DNA from: Brachynemurus nebulosus
Lineage: Eukaryota; Arthropoda; Insecta; Neuroptera; Myrmeleontidae
DNA length: 64,000 bases
NCBI GenBank assembly: GCA_035578155.1
Contig: JAPWDM010000005.1
Location: forward strand, 27,597,108 to 27,661,107
Direction: 5' to 3'
In this document: piece after piece, positions 12,401-15,400 of the stretch
How positions within the stretch are numbered: position 1 is the stretch's first letter
Layout: each line of letters opens with the position of its first letter
Program-made: the position numbers and the translations under genes
The notes under the pieces: model-generated
What the model was told of the DNA's origin: nothing
The model's database searches: none
Seen by the model: only the letters and a program-made list of their open reading frames with translations

Positions 12401-15400
12401 TCCAAATTTAGATCCATGTACGGGTACTTTTCTGAATTCAAATATACTTTGACATCAAAGAGTTCACAGTGATCAAATATGGTGACATCTTTATCTTTCT
12501 TATCGCGTCGATCTGTTTGTAATGCAAATATCACATAACGCGGTTTCTCCACTTGTGATGTTGTTTTCACCGTCCAAATGTTGTGTTTCGTTGTTGGAAT
12601 CGATGGGTAAATATGCATATCCCATGTACGAAAACCAATCGGTATATTTTGACTATTTTCCACATATTTTAACAATTGTAGTTTCGCTTCATCAGACACC
12701 GATACATGTGGAACCATCCATTGAATTTTTTGTATATGAAATACGACGTCATCAGTCGTTGACAATACTGCATCATTGTCTGTTCTTGCACGAATCAAAA
12801 CCAGCTGATGTTTTGCATTGAGAATAACTCTCTTATAATGGTGAGTAAAGCCAAACACTCGATCCAATGGTAGACAGAAATTAAAGTAGCCTTTGCTGGA
12901 TACTTTTATAGTTTCACCAGGACACCACCCCGCATTGTGTAGTTGTTTACTCTGATTTTCATTTAAAGATAAATAATTCATTAGCGTGGTGGTCGGTCCC
13001 ACATATTTGCATTGATCAATTTCCACATCGTTCAGTTCGTAACGCATCTCGTCAAACAGGTACGCCATTGAATTATTGCTTAGCTCGGCCGTGGTTGATA
13101 CTGTTCCATCACTCTTCAACAGCTGTCCTTCTATGTATAGGTAGCTTTTATGCGGCAATAAAATCACGTCCTGATTTTGAATACAGATCGTTATCTGATC
13201 GTTAGTATTATAATTATTCAAGAAAGGTGAGTACGCATGCTCCTCCAATTTCGTAATACTCTCATCGAGCTCACCTCCACCAGTACTAATTTGTAAAATA
13301 TTATTCATTTCTTCGTTTCTTCAAAACTAATCCGTACCGCTGTATGTATTGCTGCAGAAATTTTGCGTTCGCTAACGTTAATGGCGGCTTCGTCGTCGTC
13401 GTCGTCGTCGTCGTCGTCGGTCCGCACTGGTTGGCGGTAAGTTGTAAACTGTTTGACTGCGTTGGTTTATCGTCGTTAAATACCAACATAACTTATGCCG
13501 GTTTTAAATGTAATTTTATGGTTATTGTTTCGCCTCGAAAATTAACTGGGTTACCGTCTTGATCCACAATGCGCAGCACTAGAGATGTTATCCGTTGAAC
13601 GCTTACAGGCATATAAATGATTGTAGCTGGTGTCTCGCTTATTTTATACCCAGGCTCAACCTGGATTGAAAACGAATAAATATTGTGCGCTTGGACGTTG
13701 TTCAAATAACTGTTTGTCGTAATATTCGTCTCAATTTGCACCAGATTGACTTTCATAATATTCGCCGGTTTATCTGAATAATGAGTATGACCCGCCTCGA
13801 GTTTTCGTTTATTAAAACCCAGCAGTGAACCGATCGTTCGCTCTTTATCAAAATGTATTGTTTCCGTACACTTTATCGAACTTTTCAACGTGTTGTTATT
13901 TGCATGTAATATAAGTTGTGCATTAACACCTGCCCCACTCGGTGTTAACATGTCATCAATATAAGCTTCCAAATCTTCTAAATCATAATTGCCGGTAGGT
14001 ATCTCGATGCAGTGTGGTTCATGAGTAGGATCAGTACTAAAATGAAACAAATTATTTGTTTCATCGACATTCGGCACCGAATTATAAGTTTCAAAATTCA
14101 CCAGCCCACAGACGTATTCCCCCACTAATTCTATAGGCGGAAAATACTCAGCACTGAGTGTTGAAGTATCACCGCTTAATGTTAATGTGAATGACATGAT
14201 GTCTAGTACGTAAATGAAATAAAGTAGTACTCTACAACAATATTTATTTACATAAATAGATTTTTATTACATAAAAATTTTAAACAAAGGTGACCACAAT
14301 TAAAATCATTATACTTTTGATAAACATTATAATTATATCTAATGTCGTTTCCACGTAAATATCTTGTCACTTCAACAGGTGGCGGTAAATTCCCATAACT
14401 GTCGAAGTATTCCACATTCTTATTGTCTTTCACGTATGCCACCCAATGAGTTCCACGGCCAGTTGAACTATCCAAATTAACAACAGCGCACTCTTTTCGC
14501 CACGGTCGTTTTGGCAATTCATCTCTCATGAATACACCGCGAAAATTTGGTAGATGTTCCTTTCCAAACTGATAGATGTCGTGATCAGTTAACGGTCTGT
14601 CACGAGGCAGCTTGTTCAGTAGTTTTTTGAATCGATATAAAGTCCCAAACCCTTTCTGTACGGTTTTAAATATAGACCAGCACCGGATTTTTTCGATCCA
14701 AGAGCGATTGCTTCCATCATTTTGTTATGTCGCTCGCTTTCATCTAGCTGCTTCTTAGCTGTTTTATAGGTATTTATTGCTTTCGCAACACCCGCAGCGC
14801 CACCAGCAAGTGATCCAACAGCTGATAGCCCGGCAAAAAGTGGAACTAAAAATGGTAAAATTCCACCAGTCTTTGGGATCGGTATAATTCTTGGCGATGT
14901 AAATTGTTTTTTATTTTTCTTCCGAAAAATCTTCCTAGCAGCTTTCAAGGCTATGTTGATCGTATCTTTAACAGTTTTCGGTTTATTTTTCTTCAGTATG
15001 TTTCTTATATCACGAATACCGGCACCAAATATCATCTTCTTTTTCTTTGAATGACCCATTCCTAATTTTACTTTTGATTTCATAGCGTTCGTTACGGCCC
15101 AAGCAGCGGCTCGTTCACCAAAACTTGCGTCTGACGATTTAACTCGCTCCCACGCTTTGTCGGCTAAAACTAAATCGGCTTTGTGTCGATCGTTGATATC
15201 TTTGAACTGTGAATAGGCGATATCGTGTTCTTTACATGCAGCATCCAATTTATTAATACCTGGGTCGCCTCGTAATAATCGTTCACGTAGTTGTGTTCCA
15301 GGCCCACAATACTGATAACCAGGTATATGTAGTTCAAATGGTAACTTATTAATAGCAGAGTTTATTAATCCACGACCTGATGTGTTCGCTCCGCTAACCC

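Follow-up and report, generated by a model that had tools for sequence, protein, structure and literature searches.

Programmed −1 ribosomal frameshifting probably joins the PLA2-domain protein of a Polinton element to the viral protease encoded in the overlapping frame. We draw this reading from sequence and consider it likely. Most ribosomes on the PLA2 mRNA would read Lys-Asn-Tyr and then stop; on the heptamer A AAA AAC, a minority would move back by one base, probably with the aid of a hairpin that starts about 7 nt further on, and would add 124 codons to give a PLA2–protease fusion of about 396 amino acids. From this arrangement we infer actual slippage and its stimulation by the hairpin, as well as delivery to the particle: the protease would ride in as part of the fusion, alongside the PLA2 core protein, in a ratio governed by how often ribosomes slip, and the fusion would be cleaved later. 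A near-junction AUG, present in many relatives, probably also yields free protease in those elements. In the element studied here, we found only two ways of making a protease whose N-terminus is complete: the frameshift and a non-AUG start.

The two genes meet on the minus strand. The PLA2-domain protein (273 amino acids, 14616..15437, frame 0) ends in YIDSKNY, and its domain matches Pfam PF08398 (E 1.3e-14, scored on the ORF 15473-14616). The 3′ end of this ORF reads tcA AAA AAC tac tga: a slippery heptamer of the form X XXY YYZ (14622..14628), in the PLA2 frame and followed by T, then a single codon (TAC) and the TGA stop (14616..14618). Overlapping this end in the −1 frame is the protease ORF (14248..14724, minus strand, stop to stop), whose conserved domain spans approximately 14616 to 14251. 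The original prediction placed A AAA AAC in the PLA2 zero frame one codon ahead of the stop, and the heptamer at 14628-14622 lies exactly so. It also held that a −1 slip enters the protease frame where no ATG precedes the conserved N-terminus; this too was borne out, since the frame is open for 124 codons after a slip at 14628-14622 and the ORF 14724-14248 contains no ATG ahead of Met66 (FRGVFM).

Homology together with the catalytic His and Cys points to an adenain-like (C5) cysteine protease. Pfam returns Peptidase_C48 below its cut-off (E 0.0033), and a profile of 33 sequences matches the adenovirus protease 1avp (E 9.5e-5). In these alignments, the THW and CGH motifs fall on the His and Cys regions of 1avp, and H93 and C143 are invariant across the 33 sequences. 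The predicted structural model has a mean pLDDT of 85.9, with residues 1-30 less certain (block means 60-66). Its Foldseek matches include 1nln (E 7.1e-5, query TM 0.48), and the best viral match is the Adenain of box turtle adintovirus (E 2.7e-7, query TM 0.64). Profile position 22 falls on residue 19 of 1avp, which puts the beginning of the conserved domain close to that of adenain itself. Profile and model together thus suggest that the junction is located about where the adenain fold begins. In the model, a start at Met66 would cost the confident helix at residues 47-57 and all of the strand at 61-66 except its last residue.

How much weight can a heptamer in a single element bear? A strict scan of 14 element ORFs finds 24 in-frame heptamers, and a −1 slip opens at least 100 codons at three of these: TTTAAAA at 14670, AAAAAAC at 14628, and CCCAAAA at 18848. 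The first lies on the minus strand within the PLA2 gene, 42 nt upstream of A AAA AAC, and also leads into the protease frame, for 138 codons; this second in-frame PLA2 heptamer counts against reading the downstream one as a programmed site. Given a C-terminal SKN, the probability of the codons TCA AAA AAC is 8%, based on codon usage in seven element ORFs. With three long-opening heptamers and these codon odds, the evidence from the single element is weak; that the heptamer is more than chance follows from a family-wide Lys-Asn pattern, found in 116 of the 120 relatives examined. As a separate observation, the heptamer at 18848 (plus strand, C CCA AAA) lies in the integrase gene 12 codons before the stop, in the context of ORFs 17961-18893 and 18824-19513 (plus strand), where a −1 slip would open 219 codons; it may be chance, since it sits in a chromodomain coding stretch.

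The family evidence in frame 0 comes from a PLA2 search that returned 3188 homologs at E<=1e-3; the best 120 of these were used for all counts. Lys-Asn occurs within the last 12 residues in 116 of the 120, compared with 0.7% of positions elsewhere, and the heptamer's conservation among relatives, which the original prediction left to be checked, is in this way upheld at the protein level. The dipeptide stands hard against the stop: the two are separated by 0 residues in 34 relatives, one in 67, two in 11, and more in 4, such that 112 of the 116 have 0-2 intervening residues. The last GLGLYL-like motif lies at a variable distance from the dipeptide, 0 to 14 residues away. Lys is preceded by S in 47, P in 39, Q in 14, T in 6, A in 4, L in 2, K in 2, R in 1, and E in 1; in none of the 116 is the preceding residue one without any NNA codon. 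By comparison, residues without an A-ending codon make up 21.6% of those before 4314 other lysines, and 17.1% within the C-terminal 60.

What follows Asn is restricted too, being a stop in 34, Y in 34, F in 30, C in 6, W in 1, L in 4, and S in 3, with H, R, A, and V (none of which can have a T-starting codon) once each. A codon starting with T is thereby obligatory in 105 of the 116, possible in 7 more (L, S), and impossible in 4. After 1540 other asparagines, F, Y, C, or W follows in 2.7% and L or S in 16.4%. The first base after Asn is conserved and the chemistry of the side chain is not, which argues for a constraint on the nucleotides or on the −1 frame. The pattern is what one would expect if the nucleotides A AAA AAC T, and not a peptide, were being conserved, and the comparison strongly supports a slip site conserved in the family at the protein level, where AAC and AAT are indistinguishable. 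The relatives without Lys-Asn are P0186 (which ends in SKKKI), P0199, P0211, and P0227; both P0199 and P0211 are named Rhodnius prolixus. Lys-Asn is kept in 52 of 55 cluster representatives (single linkage, 70% identity), and the counts are not independent, since at 60% identity the set collapses to two clusters. Scans of viral and genome contigs for related loci gave one distant contig with a PLA2 motif, in which no protease was recognised by eye among the 8 listed ORFs of at least 80 amino acids; phage records contained no match to PLA2 by tblastn.

On the protease side, the search was scored on residues 61-158 alone, which avoids a bias toward complete N-termini, and the best 120 of 3075 relatives were classified by start. 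These start counts are rough: a start may be absent from a gene prediction or lost where a contig breaks off. In 54 of the 120, the start lies inside the conserved N-terminal part with none before it (P0032 is borderline); in 51 it lies 0-4 residues ahead of the LPxR block (49 M and 2 V, the latter probably GTG starts); and in 15 it lies further upstream. The last group can reveal what the −1 frame encodes across the slip site, where A AAA AAC T reads KKL. In 12 of the 15, KKL stands exactly three residues before LP, as it does in our sequence (KKL LNK LP); of the others, P0038 reads KKK, and P0257 and P0069 read neither. The first protease search listed 20 of 120 relatives with upstream starts, 11 of them with KKL three residues before LP or IP; since it ranks relatives with an intact N-terminus higher, we rejected it as a gauge of how they start. 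Pooling both searches, KKL occurs at the same spacing in 18 of 28 distinct upstream-start proteins and is lacking there in 10.

These starts bear on the rival that survives best, which we nonetheless judge unlikely: translation of the protease from an AUG at the junction or by reinitiation past the PLA2 stop, with the present copy either using a near-cognate CTG (14617..14619, minus strand, protease frame) or being silent. The overlapping layout of stop and start suits reinitiation, and many relatives carry an ATG in the stretch where this copy has CTG. The original prediction set related copies with separate ATG-started protease genes against its own reading, and the survey divides on the point: the 51 junction starts favour independent initiation, and many relatives need not depend on frameshifting alone for their protease, but the 54 relatives without such a start are left unaccounted for. 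The CTG of this copy, with C at −3 and A at +4, stands in a poor context for initiation. A junction start also leaves unexplained why Lys-Asn and a T-starting codon, stops included, are kept beside the PLA2 stop.

Conservation of the PLA2 terminus could also have a protein-level cause, with Lys-Asn(-Tyr/Phe) kept as a C-terminal peptide, such as a protease cofactor or a cleavage site, and the heptamer as its by-product. The C-terminal region of PLA2 is rich in conserved residues, and PDB entry titles record an 11-residue peptide as the cofactor of the adenovirus protease. We consider this explanation improbable, since the stop replaces Tyr or Phe in 34 of 116 relatives and Cys, Ser, Leu, and Trp occur there too, so that a first base is shared and not a side chain; in addition, KKL appears in the −1 frame of those 18 of 28 upstream-start relatives, identically spaced. 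A slightly poorer candidate, and a very doubtful one, is slippage of RNA polymerase on the six-A run, which would add one A in some transcripts and thereby join the frames. The run is present here, and the protein pattern of relatives suggests the same for them, but polymerase slippage needs neither the fixed phase NNA AAA AAN nor a next codon starting with T. Least credible of all is splicing of the mRNA, either to bring the two frames together or to provide a different start for the protease. An exon could be joined in the 96 nt that the protease frame extends, without a stop, upstream of the heptamer, but intact vertebrate relatives are described with intronless ORFs in the part of the source covered (PMC8097293), and the heptamer pattern is again left unexplained. 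These modes may coexist, and the confidence we place in each need not sum to one. Frameshifting is the best reading; no single rival accounts for the phase-fixed A AAA AAN T pattern.

Stimulatory structures are expected about 5-9 nt downstream of eukaryotic −1 slip sites. A 7-nt spacer (14615..14621, minus strand) separates the heptamer from a predicted hairpin (14565..14614, minus strand), in which a lower stem CAAGCUG/CAGUUUG supports an upper stem around UCGUGACAG/CUGAUCACGA. In a 62-nt fragment, the hairpin folds at −15.8 kcal/mol (z −2.45), with 5 of 200 shuffles as stable. The signal declines in longer fragments: z is −1.99 at 76 nt (7/200), −1.90 at 82 nt (11/200), and −1.50 at 122 nt (23/200), and the centroids of the 82- and 122-nt fragments pair the lower stem differently. 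Across the PLA2 and protease genes, 68 of 1129 windows of 62 nt fold at least as well. The original prediction had pointed to two downstream 6-bp stems in pseudoknot order (14567..14605, minus strand). The stems exist, pairing 14605-14600 with 14584-14579 and 14590-14585 with 14572-14567, but the role of stimulator does not suit them: they start 16 nt past the heptamer, a spacer too long for the pseudoknot to be the main stimulator. They share bases and compete with the hairpin, which at 7 nt is the better candidate, with modest support from the predicted folds. Rfam gave no match in 14450-14750.

The arrangement resembles retroviral gag-pro, as in MMTV, where a −1 slip late in a structural gene leads into the protease frame; here too the fusion would enter the particle. 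A AAA AAC is itself a known retroviral heptamer. The differences are equally clear: the element is DNA virus-like, the protease is an adenain-type cysteine protease rather than an aspartic one, the upstream partner is a PLA2 minor protein rather than Gag, and a pseudoknot at the Polinton junction is not proven. We therefore do not class the junction as a member of the retroviral gag-pro group. In adenovirus, the pVI peptide tethers and activates the protease, which offers a parallel to the proposed PLA2–protease fusion. The likeness to the adenovirus protease with its 11-residue cofactor (PDB 1avp, 1nln) extends to homology, fold, and the aligned catalytic His and Cys regions.

Closer relatives have already been linked to recoding. 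For adintoviruses, a preprint puts forward hypothetical −1 frameshifts for Penton isoforms and a potential Hexon–Adenain fusion ("Hexain"), with KnotInFrame predictions (PMC11071296). The virus group is related, the mode is the same, and the partner is a protease of the same kind; the upstream genes differ, and the portion of the preprint covered holds nothing on a PLA2–protease junction. The original prediction knew of no such device described for Polintons: this stands for the PLA2–protease pair, but −1 frameshifting had already been speculated upon in adintoviruses (PMC11071296, same portion). Mavericks of Spodoptera frugiperda, as described in the part of the paper covered (PMC5803895), carry the same two genes in insect elements, a PLA2-bearing CAP and a PRO gene with a conserved catalytic triad; unlike our junction, CAP and PRO are separate ORFs, and both mentions of "frameshift" there concern errantiviruses. 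More broadly, few eukaryotic DNA viruses are known to frameshift, and adenovirus is without hint of recoding (PMC8310308, in part). Neither Polinton nor Maverick is mentioned in the first 300,000 of 475,107 characters of PMC5009743. No PLA2–protease frameshift in Polintons appeared in the titles and abstract openings among the matches listed, which does not establish its absence from print.

These comparisons suggest a wider proposal, which we hold tentatively, at a little short of an even chance: a clade of animal Polintons packages its protease as a frameshift fusion to a membrane-active PLA2 core protein. The slip at the protease N-terminus would set the dose and tether the enzyme near a possible activating peptide, and junction AUGs would tune the balance of free versus tethered enzyme. 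Frameshift fusions of a particle protein and a protease are rarely described in animal DNA viruses. If true, the proposal would give gag-pro a DNA-virus counterpart, carrying its principle into the adenovirus-like world, and would strengthen the case that Polintons form particles that mature. It could explain the predicted proteases of this group that lack an N-terminus (54 of the best 120 of 3075) and would provide a signature of active elements that can be tested with a reporter.

The element itself (10446..25049) is bounded by terminal inverted repeats, consisting of arms 10446-10506 / 24989-25049 and 10691-10782 / 24554-24645, and is present as a single copy in the 64-kb window, the whole stretch of DNA analysed (tblastn with five element proteins). 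Its Polinton/Maverick-type genes are those for a double jelly-roll major capsid protein (12100..13308, minus strand; Pfam PF21738, E 1.5e-119), an integrase with chromodomain (Pfam), an A32-like ATPase (Pfam PF04665, E 1.1e-6), and the protease, together with a PolB-like gene recognised by eye only. Downstream of the protease lies a gene (13493..14197, minus strand, ATG at 14197) where a penton or minor capsid protein is expected; a Pfam search with its product gave no match, and we take the name from gene order alone. Two overlapping ORFs that differ in frame (24438-21979 and 22090-20198, minus strand) share the PolB-like gene between them. The strict scan found no heptamer within their overlap (21979-22090), so this gene has probably decayed. 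In 16464-17568 (plus strand), a pair of ORFs shows a +1 frame change at the A-run AAAAAAA at 16982, which may be an indel, an assembly error, or slippage. Taken with the split PolB, this frame change suggests that the copy is probably partly decayed, and it is the family, rather than this copy, that carries the frameshift argument. Repeats are also present in and around the element: five overlapping 77-nt copies spaced by 43 nt at 16219-16467, in the gap that separates the ATPase from the following ORF; a pair of 170-nt copies at 24065-24405, toward the 5′ end of the PolB ORF, which are 75% alike and lie 171 nt apart; and nested near-perfect inverted repeats (79 nt at 100% and 76 nt at 99%) at 25687-25992, just outside the element.
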